A DNA stretch of 64,000 bases, from positions 310,001-374,000 of the forward strand of contig NZ_CP058566.2 in NCBI RefSeq assembly GCF_014672715.2, read 5' to 3'. This DNA is from Dehalogenimonas etheniformans (GTDB lineage: Bacteria > Chloroflexota > Dehalococcoidia > Dehalococcoidales > Dehalococcoidaceae). The position numbers were made by a program, and so were the translations under genes. This document shows, piece by piece, positions 15,250 to 62,833 of the stretch (its first letter is position 1; every line of letters starts with the position of its first letter). The notes beneath the pieces are model-generated. The model saw only the letters and a program-made list of their open reading frames with translations, had not been told where the DNA came from and did not search any database.

Positions 15250-15502
15250 TTGATTAATTCTCCTAATTGTATATGGTATTAGATATATATATTATGCTTG
15301 TATCATTAACCATAGAGTTTATAATATTATAATGAATATAATGGAGCCACAAAATATATCGAAATGAACCCGGCACTCTTACCATTCACCAAAAGTAACT
15401 GATGAAAATGCCACGGTAGAAATCATATCCCTCACGATCTAAGAAACCTGGGAGCCCTTTTGGAATGACCGATTTAATAAACTTAATTACCCCATCGATA
15501 AA

Positions 15503-15540
15503 ATGGAAAGGGAGAGATTTTTAAAGCTCTCCCTTTCCAT
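15503..15540 (-). terminator. Rho-independent terminator of rdhA3
   Basis: A 14-bp stem ATGGAAAGGGAGAG with its complement and a 10-nt loop, followed by TTTATCG on the minus strand, 33 bp after the rdhA3 stop. Confidence 0.85.
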
Positions 15541-15572
15541 TGATCTATAACGAGAACAGGTTCACCCGGGCT

Positions 15573-17123
15573 TTACCTTAAAGAACTTGACCAATCAGTA
15601 ATACCAGTGCCCCAGGTCGGCAAGCCCGGAGCGATCTCCCACCACGTGTCTGCATCCATTAATTCGTAACCGAAGGTCTTGCCCATTTCCCAGAAGAACC
15701 CATTGAATAAACTGGTCGTTGAAACCGTTTGCTTGATCAAACCATGAACCATTGCACCAGTCTCAGTGTTCATGGTGCAGATACCTCTACAGACCTGCGA
15801 GCACCCATTGATCCCTGAAAAGCCTTGGCATTGCGTCGTGTTGGTCCAGAATAGCCTCTTCCCCGGAGCATTGATCATATTCGGTACGAGGTAGTCAAAT
15901 TTAGGTATATCCCAACTGGGCTCAGCTTCGTGAGAGATCGCTTGGCTTGGGCAGAATTCGGCACACCTTCGACAAGTGTGACAAAATCTGAAAATACCTG
16001 CATCTATTGGTTTGGCAGGTTGCAGGGGCAGATCGGTAATCACGCTGTAATAGCCGGTTACTGGACCGTGTTCGGGGTTGATACAAATCTCACTACTGCG
16101 ACCCATTTCGGAAACGCCTCCAACTACTGCACTAGCCTCGGAAGGCATCATTCCACCAGGTCCGTCGCCCGCGCCGTAACCATAGCTGTGCCAGCCTAGA
16201 ATGTTGATAAACATCTGCAGACAGGGATATACCGACTGATGGAACATGCGGTAGCGGCCGGTGTTGGACTCCGAGGAGAGTTTTGTGGAGTCATTACCCG
16301 TACCGGTGGTGCTCCAGGATGCTCTAGCCATCGGTATCATTACCGAGATATCCCAAAGCGGTCTGTCAGGTAATACCAAACGACAATCATCTACGCCATC
16401 GATCTGGGCGTTATAGCCAACATCAACATTTTCAAAATCGATTTTCCTCCAGTAACCTGCAGGTGGTGGCCAGTTGTCTATCCATTGTGTTCCCGTAGAA
16501 TTGCCTTTTGGGCCAATTCTTGTATGGGTATATACAAGGTTTCTTTCATGCCCAGCCAGTTCGGCGGTTCCAATATTACCAGCTCCAAAGCAGATGGCAG
16601 CTGCCCGTACCATCCTGGTGTTTTCTTCTGGAGTCCCTTGCCATTTGGCCATGCCCAGTTTTTCTGGGTTCGTCGGGGTCACACCCATCCAGCCTTCGAT
16701 AGGTTTCTTGGTGAGGTATGGTATCAGAGGCCTATAGGATTGAAAATAGCCACCAGCCGTACCAAGCGCAGTATCCCTTAGCGTGTTCCCTTTGGTACCA
16801 ACACGAGCAGCGCTAGCCTTAGAACTCTCTTCCCGGTTTGCTCTCCATTTGTCCGCACCCCAATGCTGAGCATTAGGATAGGATGAGTGAGCCATGATCC
16901 TATGGTCGTACCGTTTTATGTGGCTCCAATCAACTTCCACCGTGGGTTCATCGACTGATTTGATCCACCACGGGCGTTTCCACCCGCCCGATTCTGAAGC
17001 GATAACCTCATCCAGATCATGGAACGTTGGTGCGACAAGTGCAGCCCCGCCTACTCCGGCACCAGCTAGACCGATGATTTTCATGAACTCGCGTCGACTT
17101 ACTGTGTGATGGAATTTGGACAT
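15573..17123 (-). CDS. rdhA: Reductive dehalogenase catalytic subunit RdhA (3), no rdhB
   Basis: A 516-residue RdhA with Tat motif RREFMKIIG, GWKRPWWIKSVDEPTVEVDW, a first cluster CHTCRRCAEFCP (about residues 381-392) and a second CQGFSGINGCSQVCRGICTMN. Second-cluster spacing is one residue longer than in rdhA2 and matches rdhA4. No rdhB lies next to it. rdhA2, 3 and 4 share long blocks (YPNAQHWGADKW, KWQGTPEENTRMVRAAAI, WWEIAPGLP), so they look like recent paralogues. The gene has its own promoter box (17320), leader motif (17173) and terminator, so it is a single-gene unit. Confidence 0.95.
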   Translation of the reverse strand: MSKFHHTVSRREFMKIIGLAGAGVGGAALVAPTFHDLDEVIASESGGWKRPWWIKSVDEPTVEVDWSHIKRYDHRIMAHSSYPNAQHWGADKWRANREESSKASAARVGTKGNTLRDTALGTAGGYFQSYRPLIPYLTKKPIEGWMGVTPTNPEKLGMAKWQGTPEENTRMVRAAAICFGAGNIGTAELAGHERNLVYTHTRIGPKGNSTGTQWIDNWPPPAGYWRKIDFENVDVGYNAQIDGVDDCRLVLPDRPLWDISVMIPMARASWSTTGTGNDSTKLSSESNTGRYRMFHQSVYPCLQMFINILGWHSYGYGAGDGPGGMMPSEASAVVGGVSEMGRSSEICINPEHGPVTGYYSVITDLPLQPAKPIDAGIFRFCHTCRRCAEFCPSQAISHEAEPSWDIPKFDYLVPNMINAPGKRLFWTNTTQCQGFSGINGCSQVCRGICTMNTETGAMVHGLIKQTVSTTSLFNGFFWEMGKTFGYELMDADTWWEIAPGLPTWGTGITDWSSSLR

Positions 17124-50894: not shown

Positions 50895-50910
50895 TTGTTC
50901 CTCCCTAATA

Positions 50911-50948
50911 AATTTAGCCCCCTCCGAACGGCAGGAGGGGGCTAAATT
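50911..50948 (-). terminator. Expression-platform hairpin of cobalamin riboswitch 1
   Basis: AATTTAGCCCCCTCC and its complement form a 15-bp stem with an 8-nt loop, lying between the aptamer and the ribosome site of the radical SAM gene. It probably acts as the intrinsic terminator controlled by the aptamer. The second riboswitch has the same AGCCCCCTCC stem. Confidence 0.8.
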
Positions 50949-50994
50949 ACTTTAACTCCATTCCCACCTTCTGTTACCACCGGAAGATGTTGTG

Positions 50995-51114
50995 TCTGAA
51001 ACCGGCGCTTTACTGGCTCGTGGTCACCCACACACAGTAGGCGGTACTGCGCCGGACTCTCACCGGCTTTCCATTCCGTTCGCTGAAGAAAAATTATCTT
51101 CAGTGGGTTTCAGA
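50995..51114 (-). promoter_or_regulatory. Cobalamin riboswitch 1 (aptamer)
   Basis: On the minus strand the order is TCTGAAACC, GGAAAGCCGGTGAGAGTCCG, GCGCAGTACCGCCTACTGTG, GAGCCAGTAAAGCGCCGG and GGTTTCAGA. The end segments pair exactly (9 bp, P1). The GGTGAxAxTCC, CCGCCxACTGT and GAGCCAG parts are those of the AdoCbl/cobalamin aptamer. It precedes the radical SAM-cbiZ-cobD-cobO-nrdJ-rdhC operon, so high corrinoid would lower its expression. Confidence 0.92.
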
Positions 51115-51158
51115 AGCTCGATTTTTAATGTGCGATGACAATATCGAAAGGCGAGGGT

Positions 51159-51312: not shown

Positions 51313-51783
51313 TCAGATGTGCACTGAAAACGGAATGCTAATTTTCTCCCAGAAATCAATGTAAATTTTCACGGTATAAACACCTGGAACGTATCCATTT
51401 CCGTTCGCTTTCAAACTAAGTGTTACCGGAAATTGTGAGTGGATGTTATCATCTATTTGAATGGGGTCGGGCTTGCCTTCACTGAACCACCTCACGTTTA
51501 ATGTACGGCAACACATGTCATCAGACAAGGAGAACACCAAGTAGATTGCTCTACCTGATACCGAAAACTCGTTATCCGAAGTAATTGGACGACCATACGG
51601 ATCTAGCGTATCCGTCACTACAGCCTTTGTAACTAACAACCCCAGGTCAGGACATTCATCGGGTATGGTTTGTTTCGCTTCCGGCACAGCACACCCGACG
51701 CACACGAGCAAGATCGTCATCCCCAAACAAAATAATTTGACTACTAGCTTTCTCCTTTTTATTTGCGTAAGGTTAGCCTCCAA
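51313..51783 (-). CDS. Lipoprotein of unknown function
   Basis: A 156-residue protein with a basic N terminus (IKRRKLVVK), a hydrophobic core and lipobox-like LLVCVGC (Cys about residue 31), so it is predicted to be lipid-anchored outside the membrane. The mature part is beta-rich (RAIYLVFSLSDD, GVYTVKIYIDFW) with CPDLG and a CC pair (about residue 92). No enzyme motif is seen. It follows the FmdB-type gene, on the same strand. Confidence 0.72.
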   Translation of the reverse strand: MEANLTQIKRRKLVVKLFCLGMTILLVCVGCAVPEAKQTIPDECPDLGLLVTKAVVTDTLDPYGRPITSDNEFSVSGRAIYLVFSLSDDMCCRTLNVRWFSEGKPDPIQIDDNIHSQFPVTLSLKANGNGYVPGVYTVKIYIDFWEKISIPFSVHI

Positions 51784-51795
51784 AGCCCGCCACCT

Positions 51796-52089
51796 TTATC
51801 TACTCGCCTTTTTAGATATCTTCTCAGCTTTCACTTTCTCGATCCATGCACCCGGGTCTAGGGATTTATCCTCGCTCAATCGCCTTTCAGCATAAAACAT
51901 TTTCTCGTCAGCGCCATGTTTAAATTGTTCAAGGGATGACGTTTGGTGTTTCCACGAAAAGCTAGACAATAGGCGGTATCCCTGTGCTCCGCAATTAGGA
52001 CAATGGTTTATATTTGTGCCATCACTGATTTTAGCGATGACCTCAAATGTGTTTTGACATCCAGGGCATTCGTATTCGTATAAGGGCAT
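51796..52089 (-). CDS. FmdB-type zinc-ribbon protein
   Basis: A 97-residue protein with the FmdB zinc ribbon: MPLYEYECPGCQNTFEVIAK and then HCPNCGAQGYRLLSSF (two C-x2-C pairs about 18 residues apart). The C-terminal part is charged and helical. The family is small and regulatory in annotation, without firm function. It lies downstream of rdhB3, separated by a hairpin. Confidence 0.85.
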   Translation of the reverse strand: MPLYEYECPGCQNTFEVIAKISDGTNINHCPNCGAQGYRLLSSFSWKHQTSSLEQFKHGADEKMFYAERRLSEDKSLDPGAWIEKVKAEKISKKASR

Positions 52090-52143: not shown

Positions 52144-52449
52144 TTATTTTGCGAGGGTTTTCTGGCGTCGAATCAACTGGAACGTAACCAAAGCAAGGAG
52201 AATGCTTAGAGCGAATGCAATGCCCCAACCAAAAATGGCGCCCTGCGCAAATACCTTGCCTCCCAATTCTTCACCCAGTTGGGCTCCCAGCCACGAGAAA
52301 CTGAATATCCAGAGGATTGCCGAAATAACAAACATGAACCAGTGCCACCATTTGACTGCTTTTCCGTAGCTTTTCGCCATTGAAAATAAAGCCCAGGCAA
52401 CAGCAGCCAAACCAAGTCCCATGAGGATATTTAGCAACATCATCCACAT
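52144..52449 (-). CDS. rdhB: Reductive dehalogenase membrane anchor RdhB (3)
   Basis: A 101-residue protein with three hydrophobic segments (about residues 3-20, 36-54 and 70-92) and a basic tail RRQKTLAK. The GKAVKWWHWFMFVISAILW segment is the expected aromatic second helix of RdhB. It begins 1 bp after the rdhA8 stop codon, so the pair is closely coupled. It differs more from RdhB1 and RdhB2 than they do from one another. Confidence 0.85.
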   Translation of the reverse strand: MWMMLLNILMGLGLAAVAWALFSMAKSYGKAVKWWHWFMFVISAILWIFSFSWLGAQLGEELGGKVFAQGAIFGWGIAFALSILLALVTFQLIRRQKTLAK

Positions 52450-52450
52450 A

Positions 52451-54049
52451 TTACTTCACTCCGATCGGAGTTTTAATGAAACTCCCGATGTACTCATCAG
52501 TTTTTATCCACTTTGGAGGCTCATAAACACCCTTGTAATTTGGTGGATTGAGTTCCTCGTTATAGTGCTTGGGATACAAAGTCCGCTCTGCCCAGATAGC
52601 CACATTCTGAGAGACACCCGTTGGATCGTGCGATAGAACCTCACGTACGAAGCGATGGACCCATGTGTTCTTTTTAGTCCATGGACACACGGAGACGCAT
52701 GCTCGGCAGCCCATTGGACCTGCGCCGAGATTCCATCCATCGCGACATTTCGCGAGGTTTGTGTTAAACCTGCGCAGACCATAAATTTCGAAATCCGGTT
52801 CATTGGCGTAGCTGATACATTGAGTCGGACAAACCTCAGCGCAAAGCTTGCAGCGGCTGCAAAACTCACTAAGGTTAAAATCGATTGGCTTATCCGCGGC
52901 CATCGGTAGGCTTGTAGTGATGACTGCAGGCCGAACGTTACCGCCAAAATCTGGCGCGATGCAGTTCGATGTGCGTCCGATTTGGCCCATGCCGCATTCA
53001 GCACCAATTCCGGGTATCGGCATATCGTACCCGCCAAATGGTGAATGCCATCGAGCAGGGTAACCCAAGTGTTTGAGGAATTTTACCATTTGCTGCGCAA
53101 TCTGAGAGGAAATATTGTATCCGGTCCAAGAATCACCATAGTTTGGATCGCCGGCATTAACGTCCCAACTCATCGTGCCAGACACTAGGATGGCGTTGTC
53201 CCACCATTCGGGAATCTTGATTGGAGTATTCAAGCCAAAACCGCGGCCTCCAGTACCAGCGCCCAGCCCACCAAGCGCAGCATGACTCCAAGCAACCCAA
53301 CCCTTATTCAATGGGGTTACCCCTACAAAGGTTGCTCCCAGATCAGCCGCCATGCGTTTTACTAATTGACTCGCCAGCTCGGGGGTATCAAAAACAGCTC
53401 GACGTTCCGATACACCCGACCAATCGTTTTGTTCGGGTGGAGTAGTGACAGACGAAACTGGTACGGCACGTTGGGCTTCCGATCGAGCCATGGCGATTAA
53501 ACCTTCGTTCTGGTTGAAATCAGCGCGGCTGTCGATGCTTGACTTAAAACGTTCGATAAGTTGGGGGAGCCAGTCGTATTTGTACTCTTTATCGACATCG
53601 AGCATCATCGGATACAGCTCATAGTACCGCTGATATAGCGGATCTAATGCCGCAACGCCATTAGAAGGCCATGTGTTTGGCAGGCAATCCACTTTGGATG
53701 GATCATAGCCTATAGCGGGGCTGCTTCCTGAAACGGCATGTCCCGTAGTTTTAAACCTTTCACCGTAATACCATCGCATGTCGACCCGATGATACCCGTT
53801 GACAGACTGGCCATTGGGTAAATCCTGCCCAAGAACTTTCCAGCTGGAGGTAGGGACTTGGTCCACTTCAAAGGGTACGCGATCGAAGTAAACATGACCT
53901 TGGCGGTGTTCTTGACCTTGCATTGAGAACGCCGATTGGCCTTCGTGATAGCTATTCCACGTACTGCCAGCAGCTGCCACGGCAAGTCCGGCGCCACCGA
54001 TACCGGCGGCTTTAATAAAAGCCCGCCGGCTTATACCATTTTCGCTCAT
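52451..54049 (-). CDS. rdhA: Reductive dehalogenase catalytic subunit RdhA (8), divergent
   Basis: A 532-residue RdhA with Tat motif SRRAFIKAAG, the longest of the set. The first cluster is CSRCKLCAEVCP (about residues 398-409) and the second CRDGWNLGAGPMGCRACVSV with CPW after it. It lacks the GWKRPWWVK block of rdhA2-4 and differs in its N-terminal third (HRQGHVYFDRVPFEVDQVP), so it belongs to another subgroup. It is coupled to rdhB3 and diverges from a marR gene. Two copies of the GAAAGA leader motif lie 28-60 bp upstream. Substrate unknown. Confidence 0.95.
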   Translation of the reverse strand: MSENGISRRAFIKAAGIGGAGLAVAAAGSTWNSYHEGQSAFSMQGQEHRQGHVYFDRVPFEVDQVPTSSWKVLGQDLPNGQSVNGYHRVDMRWYYGERFKTTGHAVSGSSPAIGYDPSKVDCLPNTWPSNGVAALDPLYQRYYELYPMMLDVDKEYKYDWLPQLIERFKSSIDSRADFNQNEGLIAMARSEAQRAVPVSSVTTPPEQNDWSGVSERRAVFDTPELASQLVKRMAADLGATFVGVTPLNKGWVAWSHAALGGLGAGTGGRGFGLNTPIKIPEWWDNAILVSGTMSWDVNAGDPNYGDSWTGYNISSQIAQQMVKFLKHLGYPARWHSPFGGYDMPIPGIGAECGMGQIGRTSNCIAPDFGGNVRPAVITTSLPMAADKPIDFNLSEFCSRCKLCAEVCPTQCISYANEPDFEIYGLRRFNTNLAKCRDGWNLGAGPMGCRACVSVCPWTKKNTWVHRFVREVLSHDPTGVSQNVAIWAERTLYPKHYNEELNPPNYKGVYEPPKWIKTDEYIGSFIKTPIGVK

Positions 54050-54109: not shown

Positions 54110-54189
54110 GAGTCAATGCAACATGGTCACCTCCAAGCCTAAACTTTCAGGCTCTTGTGCACCAGGTACGTTATCGGGCACGATATCGT

Positions 54190-54269
54190 ATATGATACAT
54201 GAGGTTACCGTTAGTAACATCGTACTAAGGTACTAGTACCTAGAAAATATTTTTTCCCCCTAGTATAAT
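54190..54269. promoter_or_regulatory. Divergent rdhA8/marR operator region and marR -10
   Basis: AGGTACTAGTACCT (54228-54241) is a perfect 14-bp palindrome, and GTTAC-CGTTA-GTAAC (about 54204-54218) is a second dyad. TATAAT for marR lies at 54264-54269. Such dyads next to a marR gene are the usual autoregulated operator layout. Confidence 0.65.
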
Positions 54270-54297: not shown

Positions 54298-54768
54298 ATG
54301 CTCATTGAAAACAGCTGGCAACATACACCTGATGATGATGACGATCTGAGCCTCCTCATAATGCGTACCCGAAGAGCTATCTACAAAGAAAAAGAGCGGG
54401 CATATGCCAAGCTCGATATCAGCCCTGAACAACACGGCGTACTTTCGCACCTCATGCAACACGAAAAAGCGACCATCGGCGACATTACCGAAAGGATGCT
54501 CAGAGAACCTCATACCATTCTCGGCCTTGTGACCCGGATGGAGGCAAGAGGATTAATTACCAAAACGAAAGACATGAACAATAAGGGTTTGATCACCATC
54601 ACTCTTACCGATCCCGGGCGTCGGTTGTGTAAGGACCTTGAGTTGGTTGATAAAAAGTTTAAGCCTACTGCTGTTCTCACCGACTTAGAACGGGATCAAC
54701 TCGCGCATTCTCTAGAGAAAGTGCTCATTGGTTGCCTTTCCCGTCTTGGGAAATACCCCGAGCTATAG
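54298..54768 (+). CDS. MarR-family transcriptional regulator
   Basis: A 156-residue winged-helix regulator: LDISPEQHGVLSHLMQHEKATIGDITERM (helices 2-3), REPHTILGLVTRMEARGLITK (recognition helix) and KGLITITLTDPGRRL (wing). It diverges from rdhA8 with about 250 bp of palindrome-rich DNA between them. MarR-type regulators next to rdhA are well known in Dehalococcoides and act as repressors of neighbouring rdh genes. Its 3' side faces a minus-strand cobalamin riboswitch. Confidence 0.93.
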   Translation: MLIENSWQHTPDDDDDLSLLIMRTRRAIYKEKERAYAKLDISPEQHGVLSHLMQHEKATIGDITERMLREPHTILGLVTRMEARGLITKTKDMNNKGLITITLTDPGRRLCKDLELVDKKFKPTAVLTDLERDQLAHSLEKVLIGCLSRLGKYPEL

Positions 54769-54803
54769 TCTGACCCTTGCCCTCGATCCTCCTCCCCCCG
54801 TTG

Positions 54804-54838
54804 AAAAAGAAAGCCCCCTCCTTCGTTTGGAGGGGGCT
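54804..54838 (-). terminator. Terminator of cobalamin riboswitch 2
   Basis: AGCCCCCTCC and GGAGGGGGCT form a 10-bp stem with a 7-nt loop, followed by TTTCTTTTTC on the minus strand. In the plus direction the same hairpin could also end marR, which stops 43 bp before it. Confidence 0.85.
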
Positions 54839-54889
54839 AACAATGTTAACTCCATCCTACCTTCAGTTACCACCAGAAGGAGGTGTATT

Positions 54890-55004
54890 CCTGAAACCGG
54901 CGCTTTGCTGGCTAGTGGTTACCCACACACAGTAGGCGGTACTGCGCCGGATTCTCACCGGCTTTCTCTTCCGTTATCTTCTCATTAATGCAGGACGTTT
55001 CAGG
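54890..55004 (-). promoter_or_regulatory. Cobalamin riboswitch 2 (aptamer), antisense to marR
   Basis: The minus strand has CCTGAAAC at the 5' end, GAGAAAGCCGGTGAGAATCC, GCGCAGTACCGCCTACTGTG, CTAGCCAGCAAAGCGCCGG and GTTTCAGG at the 3' end, so P1 pairs over 8 bp. Most of the core is identical to riboswitch 1. No co-directional gene follows before marR (antisense) and then rdhA8. Confidence 0.9.
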
Positions 55005-55394
55005 TTGCCAATTATTTTGTAAGGTACAACTAGACCTTTGAGCGAATTACCCACAGAAGGCGTCATTCTCGTAATGTATGCCATTAACTGGGAAGGGGTT
55101 TTGTCTACCATATTTATCATCGTACATAGTACTAATTTTCATTATACTTAAATGCTTATTTTAACCTCGAGTATTCATTGCAACCACCCCAATGCCTTAT
55201 CTGCCAGCGTATTAACTCCACGTAGAGCATTACCGAAAACCTGTGATCAATTTTTTCAAAAACAATTTATCTTTTGCCCACAAAAGATTGCACAAGCTCT
55301 GCAAATGTGTGAGGTTGTGAGAATCTCACCATGTTGGAAGCCACAAGACAATGGCTTCGGTTGGCCCGGCTGCCCATGAATCGAAAAGCGGTGC

Positions 55395-55660
55395 GGCAAC
55401 TACTGCGTTAGCGCTAACGTTCGTTAGCGCCTGTAGTAACTTATTAGCCCCGACAGCCCGCTGACGCTAACCCCAGCTAACAATAACTACTGTTAGCTGG
55501 GGGGATGGCATCTTCCCAGGCCTAATGACCCGCCAACACTAACGTTTGGTAACGGGGGTAGCGGTGTAAATGGTAAGTGGTAAACGGTAGTGGGCTATAG
55601 CCCGTTACCACTACCCCCGCTACTGCCGCTACCATTTACCGCTACCACCCCGCTAATGGG
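55395..55660. repeat. Cluster of strong hairpins and inverted repeats
   Basis: CTACTGCGTTAGCGCTAACG with a partly matching downstream arm (from 55398), then the perfect 12-bp stem CCCCAGCTAACA/TGTTAGCTGGGG (55472-55503), and then an inverted repeat rich in TACCGC and GGTAGCGG around the palindrome GGGCTATAGCCC (about 55551-55660). No gene is supported. The flanking 55005-55394 holds nothing recognisable. Confidence 0.65.
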
Positions 55661-56063
55661 AGATTCGGTTCAAGAACGCGCCCTGTCAATCAGTTTGCCC
55701 TATAGTCCGTTCCATCAAGTCCCCAGACAAGCATCGAGCATTACTTCGGGCACTCGGCATGTTTTTGATCAAGCGGTTTTGCCAAACCCAGCCGGTCCAT
55801 TACCGCCGGGCGGTTCTTCGGTCAGGGACAACTAAGATAAATCCAAGACACAAGGATAAAGAAGACAACAATCCCGAGGACAACGCTACTTGACGCGTCA
55901 GGGACGGCTGCCCGTGACACTCCGTGTGAAGCCGAACCTGTCTCATAAATTGACACCGGAGCATCTCGCCCTGTAAACACCACCTAGGCATCAAAAAACC
56001 CTTCAGAATAGAGGAGGGGGTTCGGGGGAGGGGACTGGCCAATGTGTCGCGGCGGAGGTAACA

Positions 56064-56648
56064 CCATGACAAACAAGACCCTACGACAATTTCGATAATA
56101 TGACAGTTTTCAGGACAATCATGTTGAAACGGTCTTTGAGGTCGAACTGTCACCCGGTTTATATGTCATCCCGATAGGCTATGATTGGCTTCCAAACAAA
56201 TCGAAATTGCTCCAGCTATCCAGATTAGCAAACAAAACGCCGAAATTGCCAAGGAGTGTGACTATTCCTTCACGTTGGCAACCAAAATCAGACATTTGAC
56301 TAAAGAATATAAGCATGCCCCCAAGGGCGACCGACAAACATATGGCTTGAGCGTAGGCTTTGACCGCATTCTCCTGGTCTTTTGGTCTCGATTGACCCAA
56401 ACGTAGTGCGTGGATGAGATCGATTGCCATCTGCGTTTTCCAACCCTAGCTCAACAGTTGACAGGCAAGGATATTCCCGGTGCGACCCAATCGGGCTCGC
56501 AAGAGTCAGCCACCGGTTGCTAGGCCTCTATCAACTTGTTGATGAACTCTATTGTCTTGTCTATCTGACCTGGACCCGGGTCGGTGAAATCGACGATAGA
56601 CCTTTGAAGATCCCAAATCTAGATCTTCTCTATTTGAGCGCTGTTTAA
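56064..56648 (+). pseudogene. Degraded coding remnant
   Basis: After GGAGGTAACACC, an ATG at 56066 opens MTNKTLRQFR and stops at once. Beyond that stop the same frame gives VFEVELSPGLYVIPIGYDWL and runs on to about 56300. Another frame near 56500-56648 gives VSHRLLGLYQLVDELYCLVY. Frequent stops and frame changes mark decay. The plus-strand sense follows the ribosome site. The gene is not identified. Confidence 0.4.
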
Positions 56649-56675
56649 CAGAGTATCGCCTAGGAGTTATTAACC

Positions 56676-56695
56676 ATCAATAATATATTATTGAT
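56676..56695. repeat. Perfect 20-bp AT-rich palindrome
   Basis: ATCAATAATATATTATTGAT, with no T run, about 50 bp left of the CTATCC repeats. A protein-binding or crossover site is possible. Confidence 0.6.
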
Positions 56696-56742
56696 GTCCA
56701 TAAAATTAAGCCAAATTGTAATTTAAGAGCTTGTCGATATTC

Positions 56743-56776
56743 GCTATCCAGTTGACTATCCGATTCACTATCCAAA
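56743..56776. repeat. CTATCC repeats
   Basis: CTATCC occurs three times with 11-bp or similar spacing (GCTATCCAGTTGACTATCCG, then TTCACTATCC), about one helical turn apart. The same hexamer is repeated at 37617-37741 beside the tyrosine recombinase. Confidence 0.5.
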
Positions 56777-56989
56777 TCGGTTAGTATCCTGTTTATACCT
56801 ACGCATTCCGAAATAAGATAGCATAATGACTCGTGAAGTAGTAGGTGGTTAGGATACCAAATGGGATACCAAATAGGACGCAAAAATATTGGGTTTTGTG
56901 GCCCCGGTTACCTTCAATAATTACGTTAATATTGGTCTCTTGGTTCAGGGCACACAATAACATCTACTTATAAGGGCTCGAATGCCGAG

Positions 56990-57532
56990 CTACATATTTC
57001 GAAGCTCTCGAAAATATTCTCTCACCGCACTTTCCTGGCTCTTCGGTTCAATCGAACCCGGCCTCAGGCTCCGGACATGATCAATGGCGCTTTGCGGCTC
57101 CCAGTCGCGGCTAACCAGGCAACAGGCAAGAATGGTCCCAGTGCGGCCAAAACCGGCTCCGCACGAAACGCCTACCGGTCTTGTAGCTTCGAGCGACTTT
57201 GCGATGAAGGCCACTATCTTGCGTATTTGATTCAGCGTAGGGGCTGTAAAGTCGGCTACCGGTTCGTGGCAATCCCAAAGTCCGAGTTGGGTGATTTGAG
57301 AATTGGTTACCGGGGTATATTTAGTTTCTTGCATTCTCACGAGGGCAAGGACTCCTTGCTTCTTCAACCATGACAAGTCTTGCTCTGATACGGGGGCTGC
57401 ATGTCCGGCTAACTCGCCCTCAATTATCCAGCTGAAATTCAAATTGTTCGTTTTCGGGATACTCTTTTCCATGGTTTTGCTTGGCGAGTTGTACTTGCTG
57501 CTCAGGCGGTGGAAATGTATTTGATTCCTCAA
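56990..57532 (-). CDS. Dual-specificity protein phosphatase family protein
   Basis: Up to 180 residues, with the C-x5-R signature loop in VSCGAGFGRTGT (about residue 130; Ser replaces the usual His before Cys) and the following SAIDHVRSLRPGSIEP. The KQGVLALVRMQETKYTPV strand precedes it. The likely start is the ATG of MEKSIPKTNNL, 20 codons in. It acts on phosphoproteins or small phosphates. It stands next to a small membrane protein gene on the same strand, near a mobile element. Confidence 0.85.
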   Translation of the reverse strand: MRNQIHFHRLSSKYNSPSKTMEKSIPKTNNLNFSWIIEGELAGHAAPVSEQDLSWLKKQGVLALVRMQETKYTPVTNSQITQLGLWDCHEPVADFTAPTLNQIRKIVAFIAKSLEATRPVGVSCGAGFGRTGTILACCLVSRDWEPQSAIDHVRSLRPGSIEPKSQESAVREYFRELRNM

Positions 57533-59302: not shown

Positions 59303-59995
59303 CTAGTCCTCTGAACCACCAGTCCATAGATCTTGATACCACTTCCGGTGTTCCTCACCCGCTATTTTCCGGTACTTGGCGGTGGTATTAAAACTTTGGT
59401 GACCAAGGTGCTGTTGTAGCATCCGCATCCCTTCGCCCGAATCATTGTGTTTCATGGCGAAAACCGCAAAAGCATCCCTCAATTTGTGGGGTGAAGCATT
59501 ATGAATCTTCCCTGTTTCCGGGTTAATCAGCTTGGGTAAACCGGCTTTTTCAGCCAGATTCTTGATTATTTGCCAGGCTCGATGCCGGTTGATCCCGAAA
59601 AGGACCAGTCTGCCGTTCCGTTCTACCGGACCTCCTGATGCGATGAATTTCTTGACAAGGCTTAGGAGCGTATCATCCACTGGCAAGACACGTTGTCTTC
59701 TGACGTCTTTGATGTCATGTATCGCCGATTCCACTTTGGCGCCGCAAGCCGGGCAGAATATAGTTGTCAGGCATAAGGCCGCCTGGCACTCCGGGCATTT
59801 AAGCTTGATCCTGCTTTTGAGATGTTTGATCGTAATTGTCCCGTTTGCAAAGTCGATATCATCAACGCCTATGGCCAAAGTTTCACTGATGCGCGTACCG
59901 AGACGAAAAGATGTTGAAACAAGCAGTTCATCCCGGACATTTGTCGCCTCTTCTTTCATTTTGAAGATATCGGTAGGTTCAAGATAAGCTTTCAT
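59303..59995 (-). CDS. Tyrosine recombinase, catalytic domain with zinc-ribbon insert
   Basis: A 230-residue integrase that is nearly all catalytic domain: SFRLGTRISETLAIGVDDID (first Arg, about 35), PHKLRDAFAVFA (H-x-x-R, about 169), LQQHLGHQSFNTTAKYRKI (His and nucleophile Tyr, about 205). Between strands it carries CPECQAALCLTTIFCPACGA (about 68-87), a zinc-ribbon insertion of two C-x2-C pairs. The N-terminal core-binding domain is missing, so it may need a partner. A 72-residue ORF overlaps its start. Confidence 0.9.
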   Translation of the reverse strand: MKAYLEPTDIFKMKEEATNVRDELLVSTSFRLGTRISETLAIGVDDIDFANGTITIKHLKSRIKLKCPECQAALCLTTIFCPACGAKVESAIHDIKDVRRQRVLPVDDTLLSLVKKFIASGGPVERNGRLVLFGINRHRAWQIIKNLAEKAGLPKLINPETGKIHNASPHKLRDAFAVFAMKHNDSGEGMRMLQQHLGHQSFNTTAKYRKIAGEEHRKWYQDLWTGGSED

Positions 59996-60197
59996 AGGGA
60001 TCAGCCTCCTTGTTCATCGCCGGATCAAGTCCATTGGCCGCAGTGCAAACGCTGGAAATGCCTTCGTCCATACCATTTCTTGGTGGAGAAGAAGACCCCA
60101 ACTCCCTAAGGCGGCGACGGACAATCAGCCTGGCTAAGATTCTCATAGCCAGATGACGACCGTCTGAGTTTTCCGGACCCCATGAATTGCTCACCAT
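59979..60197 (-). CDS. Small ORF coupled to the tyrosine recombinase
   Basis: A 72-codon ORF overlapping the recombinase start by 17 bp. The N-terminal part is basic (RHLAMRILARLIVRRRLREL), and the rest is polar. It could supply the missing DNA-binding part of the recombinase or be a regulator. The family is not recognised. Confidence 0.45.
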   Translation of the reverse strand: MVSNSWGPENSDGRHLAMRILARLIVRRRLRELGSSSPPRNGMDEGISSVCTAANGLDPAMNKEADPYESLS

Positions 60198-60315
60198 TCT
60201 ATTCTAAGGCATCGGATCAACGCAGATGTCTAAGGCAGCTATATATTGACAATGACATAATAGTATGGTATGACGTACAAATATCACAGGTGAACTCATA
60301 CCGGAGGTGTTTTTG

Positions 60316-61224
60316 ATGCCGAAGAAAAAAATCCCTTCACCCAAGGAGATGCGAGATTGGCTGGAGAGCCGAGAGAACGGAACCTCCGAGGTCGAACTCG
60401 CCCGAACTAAGGGACGGGATATCCGCACGATCAGGGCTAGTCTTCAAAAAGCGATGGACGAGCGCAGGTTTAACCTGGCTCAAATCGAACTACTAAGAAA
60501 CGCTCTTAAAGCCCACCAGGAGCAGCTTATGGGGGCTGTAGACTGGCTACAGCAGAACGATGATTTGCCGCCGCGCGATCTGGATATCCCGTGGCCGGTG
60601 GGGAGCGGAGAAATCAATTCTTCGAGCGAGGAACCTCCGCTGGAAGTCGCTTTACTCAGGGAACATTTGCCAAAAGACCAGCTGTGGATCCGGCTCGATC
60701 GATGGCAGAAAGCACGGAAGGATTACATTGACAGTCTGGCTAACGTCAAACAAATCGCTGCCGAAATGTTGATGCAACGAACCGGCGGCGTCTTTGTTGA
60801 CGAACGTTTCAATCCAATCGAAGGCGCTCCAACAAGCGTCGTCAATAGTGAAAATACCGTCAAGCTGGTTGAGAGTAACCTCTTGGAACTGGCATACAAA
60901 CGGTCGATCGATTCAATATTTCAAAAGATTCCCCATTCTAATGAGAACCTCGAAAAAAGCATCAAAATCGATAAGCACAGCGGTGAAGCCCGGCTTGGTC
61001 AGGGAAATACCCTTGCGATCTGCCCAGGTAAAGAGTCTGTTTGTAAGGCGTCGATCGTTTCAGTTCTAATAGAATTGCCCGTAACACCTGCAGCAAACAG
61101 AATCAAAACCTCGTGGGAAGAACTCGTTGCCGCCAAAAAGGAGCTCGACGAGACGCTTAAAGAAATCAAGCTCGGAATTCTTATCACCGGGCAATGCCGA
61201 ATTTGTAAAAGGCTCAAGGGTTAA
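60316..61224 (+). CDS. HTH-containing accessory protein of the serine recombinase
   Basis: About 302 residues from the ATG at 60316 (MPKKKIPSPKEMRDWLESRE), after GGAGGTGTTTTTG. EVELARTKGRDIRTIRASLQ looks like an HTH, and RRFNLAQIELLRNALKAHQE follows as a helix. The C terminus holds four cysteines, the last two CRICKR. Its stop lies 13 bp before the recombinase ATG, so the genes are coupled. It is probably a directionality or accessory factor; the function is unproven. Confidence 0.65.
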   Translation: MPKKKIPSPKEMRDWLESRENGTSEVELARTKGRDIRTIRASLQKAMDERRFNLAQIELLRNALKAHQEQLMGAVDWLQQNDDLPPRDLDIPWPVGSGEINSSSEEPPLEVALLREHLPKDQLWIRLDRWQKARKDYIDSLANVKQIAAEMLMQRTGGVFVDERFNPIEGAPTSVVNSENTVKLVESNLLELAYKRSIDSIFQKIPHSNENLEKSIKIDKHSGEARLGQGNTLAICPGKESVCKASIVSVLIELPVTPAANRIKTSWEELVAAKKELDETLKEIKLGILITGQCRICKRLKG

Positions 61225-61237
61225 AAGAGAGGGCGTT

Positions 61238-62815
61238 ATGGATGTCGTTTTGTATGCCCGCGTCAGTTCGGAAAAACAGGATGTCGACCTCAGTTTATCA
61301 GCGCAGCTTAAAGCTCTTCGAGCTTTCGCTTTGAGCAAAGGCTACACCATTGTGCGTGAATACGTCGATGAAGCTGAAACCGGCAGAACGACCTCCCGTC
61401 CGGCGTTTAAGGAGATGATCGCCGCCGCTCGTCGTCCCGGCAAGACTTTCCAGGCAATCCTCGTTTGGAAATTTTCTCGTTTCGCCAGAAGCCGCGAAGA
61501 TTCGATCGTCTTCAAGACACTTCTGCGAAGAAATGGGGTTCAGGTCATTTCAATCAACGAACCATCTGAAAACACACCTGTTGGTCATTTAATGGAAGCA
61601 ATTGTCGAATCATTAGACGAATTTTACAGCGAAAATTTAGGCGAAGAAGTCGTTAGAGGCATGCGGGAAGCCGCCTCGCGCGGGTTTTACCAATCATATC
61701 GGGCTCCCTACGGATATCAAAAGGTCAGAGTGTCTGACGGAGCTAAAGTCAGGACGAAGCTTGAATTGAATACATCTCAATCCAAAGTAGTCGAAGGCAT
61801 TTTCAACGCTGTTCTTTCAGGCCAGGGTTCTATCGACATCGTTAGAGACCTGAACTCCAAAGGCATTCCCAGCTCCAAGGGCAAGGCTTGGACCAAAGGT
61901 ACTATCTATTCGATGCTTGGCAATGAGATCTACACCGGCACTGTTGTCTGGGGACGCGTCAGCAAAAGGGGGCTGAAACCCATAAGAGTTGAAGGTGCAT
62001 GTCCGAAGATCGTCGAGCGTGAGACCTTCGACAACGTTCAAAAATTGCTGGGTGAACGGGCTCCAAAGAAGGTTCATCCGAGGGTGGTTTCCAGTAAGTT
62101 CCTCTTAAGCGGACTAGCGCGCTGCGGATACTGTGGTCGCGCTCTCACCGGGGCGGACGCAAAGAGTGGTAAGTTCTCATATTACGTGTGCGGTAGTCTG
62201 ACTAAGAAGGGGGCGGGTTCTTGCCATTCCAAATACCTGAACGCTTCCAAATTCGAAGACGCAGTGATTGCCGAAATCAAGAAAGCAATTCTTACAACGG
62301 AGAATCTCACCGACCTTGCTAAGATTGCCAGCGAGGAATGGAACGAAACGCTATCCCAGCTCAGGCAGGAAATCGACACTGTCCAGGATAGTCTTAAAGA
62401 TACTGGATACCGGCTCTCTAATATCTATGATGCCATCGAGACGGGAAAATTCGACTTACCGGATCTGTCGCTAAGGATCAAAGAACTGAAGATGCAACAG
62501 GAGAAACTGCTGGAAAGGAAACATCAGATTGAACTCGAGTACGCTGAGCATAGATATGAATTACTTGACCCCAAACAAATGGAGGCTTACGTTGAGGATC
62601 TGAAATCACTGCTTGATGAAGGCCAGGTCTTCGAGAGAAAGGCGTTCATCAAGGGATTTGTAAAAGAGATACGGGTCAAGGGTGATGAGGTGATTTTGGA
62701 GTACACACCCCCGTTACCTGAAGGGGTAGGGGAAACGGTTCTATCTATTGGAGGTCATGGTGGGCAGCAGAGGATTCGAACCTCTGACTTCCTGCGTGTG
62801 AAGCAGGCGTTCTAA
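61238..62815 (+). CDS. Large serine recombinase
   Basis: About 525 residues from the ATG at 61238 (MDVVLYARVSSEKQDVDLSL), after GAGAGGG. The catalytic Ser is in ARVSS (about residue 10). RYSRFARS-like KFSRFARSREDS follows, then YGYQKVRV, a recombinase domain, the zinc ribbon CGYCGRALTG and a coiled coil (QLRQEIDTVQDSLKDTGYRL). The last 19 codons lie inside the tRNA-Val gene, so the stop is supplied by the target. This is the integrase of an element lying to its left. Confidence 0.94.
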   Translation: MDVVLYARVSSEKQDVDLSLSAQLKALRAFALSKGYTIVREYVDEAETGRTTSRPAFKEMIAAARRPGKTFQAILVWKFSRFARSREDSIVFKTLLRRNGVQVISINEPSENTPVGHLMEAIVESLDEFYSENLGEEVVRGMREAASRGFYQSYRAPYGYQKVRVSDGAKVRTKLELNTSQSKVVEGIFNAVLSGQGSIDIVRDLNSKGIPSSKGKAWTKGTIYSMLGNEIYTGTVVWGRVSKRGLKPIRVEGACPKIVERETFDNVQKLLGERAPKKVHPRVVSSKFLLSGLARCGYCGRALTGADAKSGKFSYYVCGSLTKKGAGSCHSKYLNASKFEDAVIAEIKKAILTTENLTDLAKIASEEWNETLSQLRQEIDTVQDSLKDTGYRLSNIYDAIETGKFDLPDLSLRIKELKMQQEKLLERKHQIELEYAEHRYELLDPKQMEAYVEDLKSLLDEGQVFERKAFIKGFVKEIRVKGDEVILEYTPPLPEGVGETVLSIGGHGGQQRIRTSDFLRVKQAF

Positions 62816-62833
62816 CCACTGAACTAGCCGCCC
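62758..62833 (-). tRNA. tRNA-Val (CAC)
   Basis: The minus strand folds as a full tRNA: acceptor GGGCGGC/GCTGCCC, anticodon arm CCTGC-TTCACAC-GCAGG (anticodon CAC) and T arm AGAGG-TTCGAAT-CCTCT. CCA is encoded (62758-62760). The 3' half is shared with the end of the serine recombinase gene, marking it as the attachment site. Confidence 0.95.

Follow-up and report, generated by a model that had tools for sequence, protein, structure and literature searches.

Corrinoid supply is limiting for organohalide-respiring bacteria, and in an organohalide respirer other than the one studied here, corrinoid starvation raises the genes downstream of cobalamin riboswitches up to 346-fold (PMC4285132). In Listeria monocytogenes, a B12 riboswitch governs an antisense RNA: B12 cuts AspocR, the antisense RNA to pocR, from 1,400 nt to 230 nt, and since PocR is an activator, AspocR turns a B12-dependent pathway down under B12 shortage (PMC8079631). 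MarR-type repressors encoded divergently from reductive dehalogenase (rdhA) genes have been shown for Dehalococcoides CBDB1 and surveyed for Dehalogenimonas; the accessible part of that survey takes the MarR regulators beside rdhA to be repressors, mentions no cobalamin riboswitch beside marR, and refers to a riboswitch once, a Moco riboswitch (PMC13390414). A direct link from B12 sensing to the control of a dehalogenase gene was not found in the literature that we searched.

The locus described here lies in a window of 64,000 nucleotides from Dehalogenimonas etheniformans, and positions given without a genome are those of this window. On its minus strand, at 54804-55006, stands a cobalamin riboswitch (ribA) composed of an aptamer, a P13 hairpin, an antiterminator-like hairpin and a strong terminator. 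Like the riboswitch of Listeria AspocR it is of the termination type, is convergent with a regulator gene, here marR, and would cover that gene in antisense. It differs from AspocR in that its target is a presumed repressor and not an activator, and in that any readthrough would go on into rdhA8, a gene lying in the sense direction. As in the surveyed MarR systems, marR is divergent from rdhA8, which is accompanied by rdhB, and palindromes are present in the shared promoter region.

Structure, kinship and preservation of the riboswitch

The aptamer of ribA extends from P1 to P1 over 54890-55004 (minus), with P1 formed by 55004-54997 and 54897-54890 and closing exactly at the ends that a sequence-only reading of the window had proposed. 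The conserved core (GCCGGUGAGAAUCCGGCGCAGUACCGCCUACUGUG) is present with its conserved residues, while the first 5' hairpin, at the P2 position of Rfam, does not fold (0.0 kcal/mol). A P13 hairpin (CCUUC..GAAGG) lies at 54860-54880 (minus), and both hairpins needed for an L5-L13 kissing loop are present, with only some three complementary bases by eye (GGU/ACC). The antiterminator-like, or pre-terminator, hairpin (GG.GUUAAC-AUU-GUUAGC.CC, at about 54833-54853, minus) overlaps the 5' arm of the terminator and is conserved in the aligned members of the subtype; its loop-closing pair is C-G in ribA, U-G in a paralogue at 247 kb in the same genome and A-U in a second paralogue, ribB, the pairing being kept. 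The intrinsic terminator, for which the terminator scan agreed with the earlier placement at 54804-54838 (minus), consists of a 10-bp stem (54838-54812) and a U-tract (54811-54804), with a folding energy of -22.0 kcal/mol. From the end of the U-tract to the stop codon of marR there are 35 bp, and no sense gene belonging to ribA lies between. Judged by these predicted structures, ribA is a genuine, structurally intact B12 riboswitch of the termination type. A different antiterminator, in which the aptamer segment GGAAGAGAAAGCC pairs with the 3' arm of the terminator and the U-tract, came from the minimum free energy fold and was dropped, since the paralogues keep this pairing poorly and it also comes too late in transcription; the conserved alternative is the hairpin over the terminator 5' arm.

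Rfam at its default threshold reported no match for ribA. At a relaxed threshold, the model RF00174 matched 54878-55017 with 21.5 bits (E=0.0095), short of the gathering score of 31.5. Scores of 19-30 bits, also under the RF00174 cutoff, were obtained for several operonic members of the subtype, so that this threshold is set too high for it. When a covariance model was built from nine relatives but not from ribA, it matched 54804-55006 with 181.4 bits (E=6e-45), its members ranging from 160 to 209 bits. By blastn, ribA shares 87% identity over 175 bp (E=1e-54) with the riboswitch at 247 kb, which heads a corrinoid-salvage operon, 84% with ribB (50909-51116) and 87% with a riboswitch in the related genome G003. 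Between them, the held-out model and the blastn matches establish homology over the whole length of ribA to riboswitches that stand before corrinoid genes. When compared with the corrinoid-salvage riboswitches of the Dehalococcoidaceae, a subtype of RF00174 found before rSAM/cbiZ, ribA aligns at full length through aptamer, P13, antiterminator-like hairpin and terminator, with 77-83% identity to its two paralogues in the alignment; unlike them, it has no downstream gene of its own, its P2-position hairpin is unfolded, and it points into marR on the opposite strand.

Across 11 genomes of the family, the covariance model identified ten strong members of the ribA subtype. Eight of these are followed, after no more than about 40 nt, by a corrinoid-salvage operon (cbiZ, cbiB, cobA and others) that begins with rSAM or cbiZ on the same strand. 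The 247-kb locus (G000) has the intact order rdhA, about 48 nt, riboswitch, rSAM, cbiZ, cbiB, cobA. The sister riboswitch ribB (minus), a member of the model with 195.6 bits, precedes rSAM-cbiZ-cbiB-cobA-nitrilase-nrdJ; it is encoded on the same strand as ribA, 3.9 kb further down, and was not part of the earlier finding. Of the other cobalamin riboswitches in these genomes, those inspected likewise stand before a same-strand gene; where recognisable by translation, this gene looks like a corrinoid gene (cobS-, cobT- or btuF-like) or is alcohol-dehydrogenase-like (named by eye), and one weak candidate (L082, 16.9 bits) has no clear gene. Elsewhere in the window, at 15478-15618 (minus), a very weak match (12.3 bits) to the riboswitch model falls at the 3' end of a further rdhA-like ORF; the core is missing, and the match is probably due to chance. 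The two remaining strong members, ribA and one in G003, are orphans, and both stand directly behind an rdhA 3' end.

The G003 orphan (G003:1414371-1414570; L058 6371-6570) comes from a related genome of this genus and is flanked by two rdhA genes. It resembles ribA in its subtype, in its place behind the rdhA 3' end and in the lack of a cob gene, but it is followed by a further rdhA gene in the same orientation, and the element has decayed, showing 13 deviations at invariant columns and the loss of its terminator (-2.0 vs -22.0 kcal/mol in ribA). A very strong terminator-like hairpin follows this orphan (AGTACCTGTGGGGCTTCACCAGCCCCACAGGTACTTTTT), and an Rfam scan around it gave nothing of note. 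At the aptamer columns without variation among operonic members, ribA shows no deviation; overall it deviates in three of 110 columns, each of them located in the terminator loop. Eight substitutions are unique to ribA, and every one lies outside the 98 columns conserved in the Dehalococcoides members (hypergeometric P=2e-5); six of them are in the first hairpin at the P2 position, which is the sole structural loss. Given that a G010 member standing before cbiZ also lacks this hairpin, it may be dispensable. This distribution of substitutions indicates that the switch has been under selection, and ribA appears to be a true and unusually well-preserved riboswitch that has been left without its operon. 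Such preservation is a point against simple decay, and the reading of ribA as a leftover does not explain why the switch is so well kept; conservation does not in itself prove a present use, since the unique substitutions may be older than the loss of the operon.

The state of the element also bears on two readings that make no use of antisense control. The riboswitch-terminator could have been retained as a barrier protecting marR against transcription on the minus strand, with B12 sensing incidental, and the very stable terminator with its good U-tract is indeed aimed at the 3' end of marR; however, a bare terminator would suffice for this and the invariant aptamer would be left unexplained, so that we consider the proposal very unlikely. 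We give hardly any credence to a role in trans for the short terminated RNA, for instance as a corrinoid sponge or an sRNA similar to EutX/Rli55: while ribA is a stand-alone riboswitch unit without a gene, as such a role would have it, the genome in any case encodes two leader RNAs like it at other places.

The marR-rdhA8 module and the predicted path of readthrough

The gene convergent to ribA, marR (54298-54768, plus), encodes a MarR-family regulator of 156 aa, whose orthologues in G009 and G010 are 53% identical. Divergent from it is the reductive dehalogenase gene rdhA8 (52451-54049, minus), 83-84% identical to its G009/G010 orthologues, together with rdhB8 (52144-52449, minus), encoding a putative membrane anchor that is 74% identical in G010. 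Genes for an FmdB-type zinc-ribbon protein (51796-52089, minus) and a putative lipoprotein (51313-51783, minus) are also part of the conserved module. Three genomes keep these last two (51313-52089) downstream of rdhA8-rdhB8, and next to the 50-53% identical RdhA of G003 there is likewise an FmdB-type gene; both proteins are possible accessory factors of the rdhA8-type dehalogenase. For strain GP, a comparative paper from 2026 lists five rdhA genes linked to marR, of which one has rdhB and a promoter palindrome, and rdhA8 may be that gene.

Between 54812 and the start of rdhA8, the terminator scan found no intrinsic terminator on the minus strand, and any readthrough past the ribA terminator would therefore cover the whole of marR in antisense and then run into rdhA8 in the sense direction. 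The sequence-only reading had described the same gene order, with marR on the opposite strand and then rdhA8, and had foreseen a transcript antisense to the entire marR gene that could reach rdhA8; both stand. The element is convergent with a regulator gene and would read antisense into it, a geometry that matches Listeria AspocR, which likewise has a B12 riboswitch convergent with a regulator gene and controlled by termination (PMC8079631). It suggests a scenario in which corrinoid limitation would open the terminator, the antisense RNA would lower MarR and the same RNA may lead into rdhA8, which would be derepressed and read through at once. The integrity of ribA with both of its alternative structures, the path to rdhA8 free of predicted terminators and an operator-like sequence common to the marR/rdhA8 promoter and the region upstream of ribA all speak for it. 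Nevertheless, the sign is backwards: AspocR lowers an activator, whereas here scarce B12 would reduce a repressor and so increase an enzyme that needs B12. Because a shortage of B12 would thereby raise a B12-dependent enzyme, adaptive control is less likely, unless this MarR acts differently. Furthermore, an untranslated antisense RNA would presumably be exposed to Rho termination, the ribA-marR junction occurs in one genome only, and the placement of ribA is fully explained by its history, as set out below. On balance, we regard an AspocR-like circuit as unlikely.

The operator-like sequence upstream of ribA, ATCGTACATAGTACTA (55119-55134, plus), lies next to a TATAAT and resembles ATCGTACTAAGGTACTA (54219-54235, plus) in the marR/rdhA8 promoter region. 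Only two sites in the 2.07-Mb genome (2,068,322 bp, one contig) match the pattern ATCGTACN{1,8}GTACTA, those at 54219 and 55119, and a reversed control pattern has zero sites in the same genome; these counts should be interpreted with caution, as the pattern was written after both sites had been seen and the spacings of the two differ. A looser pattern adds two sites, G000:1809518 and 1809681, in the apparent promoter region of another rdhA (start by eye), which represent a close 25-bp version of the 54219 site (92% identical). One regulator could act on both the marR/rdhA8 and the ribA promoter through a shared operator, which is suggestive and is offered here as a lead and not as evidence. 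For ribA itself, the sigma-70 promoter scan gave no confident site; the TATAAT upstream, at 55141-55146 (minus), was recognised by eye and has no good -35 element. A palindrome in the marR/rdhA8 promoter region, ATCGTATAYGAT (54185-54198, plus), which is doubled as ATCGTATACGAT in the corresponding intergenic regions of G009 and G010 (L060, L062), is likely to be the operator of this MarR. If a stranded B12 riboswitch had been co-opted in this way, low corrinoid would yield antisense RNA over marR along with readthrough into rdhA8, driven by a promoter of its own that shares the MarR operator, and corrinoid supply would be directly coupled to the expression of a corrinoid-dependent dehalogenase. 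We hold this full scheme to be distinctly improbable.

Origin of the locus

Immediately upstream of ribA, at 55045-55121 (minus), there is a relic of an rdhA 3' end (..NPFPVNGIHYENDAF..) that is frameshifted and ends in TAA. Its translation matches RdhA C-termini by tblastn (E=2e-5 and 7e-5), and its DNA aligns to the tail of the 247-kb rdhA with a score of 67, the best of 200 shuffles reaching 52. The relic ends about 40 nt before P1 of ribA, a spacing similar to that of the intact rdhA-riboswitch-rSAM-cbiZ locus (about 48 nt). Because the relic matches the 247-kb rdhA tail at this similar spacing, ribA can be taken as the riboswitch of a former rdhA-riboswitch-salvage locus. In the pre-terminator segment, ribA follows the 247-kb paralogue and ribB resembles the Dehalococcoides form (alignments, by eye). 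An origin through a circular rdh module integrated by a crossover inside the riboswitch, with ribA and ribB as direct repeats, was considered and found unsupported, there being no hybrid pattern in the alignments (by eye).

The module comprising marR, rdhA8, rdhB8 and the FmdB-type and lipoprotein genes has a syntenic counterpart in G009 and in G010; in both, a riboswitch and cbiZ come next, in the position that ribB occupies here. Behind marR, no riboswitch is present in the syntenic loci of either genome, so that the arrangement itself, whose conservation would be a supporting and not a strictly defining feature, is not conserved there. RdhA8 orthologues were not found outside the Dehalococcoidaceae among 393 genomes of the class; together with the loci of G009 and G010 that lack ribA, this leaves the ribA-marR junction known from one genome only among those searched. 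Scans of genome and viral contigs for named relatives returned none, and neither did a plasmid search.

The stretch 55020-56990 contains no clear intact gene. At 56353-56642 (minus) lies a broken second copy, with in-frame stops, of the neighbouring dual-specificity phosphatase gene (56990-57532). A tyrosine recombinase, a large serine recombinase and a tRNA-Val occur close together at 59303-62833, possibly marking the edge of a genomic island, and the presence of recombinases further out would fit a rearranged region.

We suggest that ribA is probably a stranded leftover of the shuffling of rdh and corrinoid-salvage loci, its readthrough being incidental and not part of a selected circuit. 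Originally it would have stood at the head of an rSAM-cbiZ corrinoid-salvage operon, with an rdhA gene before it; a rearrangement of rdh modules would then have taken away the body of the upstream rdhA along with the downstream operon, and brought marR-rdhA8-rdhB8 alongside. If the promoter still fires, corrinoid would be expected to favour the ribA terminator, as for the cobalamin riboswitches of the other organohalide respirer (PMC4285132), giving an RNA of about 200 nt at high corrinoid, while at low corrinoid polymerase would run antisense through marR towards rdhA8. What the sequences show is the element itself, how intact it is and to what it is related, the rdhA relic and the syntenic loci that lack ribA, whereas the order of events, any activity of the ribA promoter, a response to B12 and the lack of a selected function are inferred. 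The sequence-only reading had named a leftover of a lost cob operon as its alternative, and with a decayed rdhA 3' end upstream at the spacing of the intact locus, this alternative is better supported than an antisense regulator. Its preferred interpretation had the geometry right, whereas the regulatory device drawn from it sits poorly with a junction found in one genome, syntenic modules without a riboswitch and a sign that is physiologically backwards.

Should ribA be active, the locus would provide a direct link from B12 sensing to the control of a dehalogenase gene and would add to AspocR a second natural example of its type. Should it be a leftover only, it would mean that riboswitch-headed salvage loci and rdh cassettes have been rearranged side by side, with intact switches becoming stranded without their genes.
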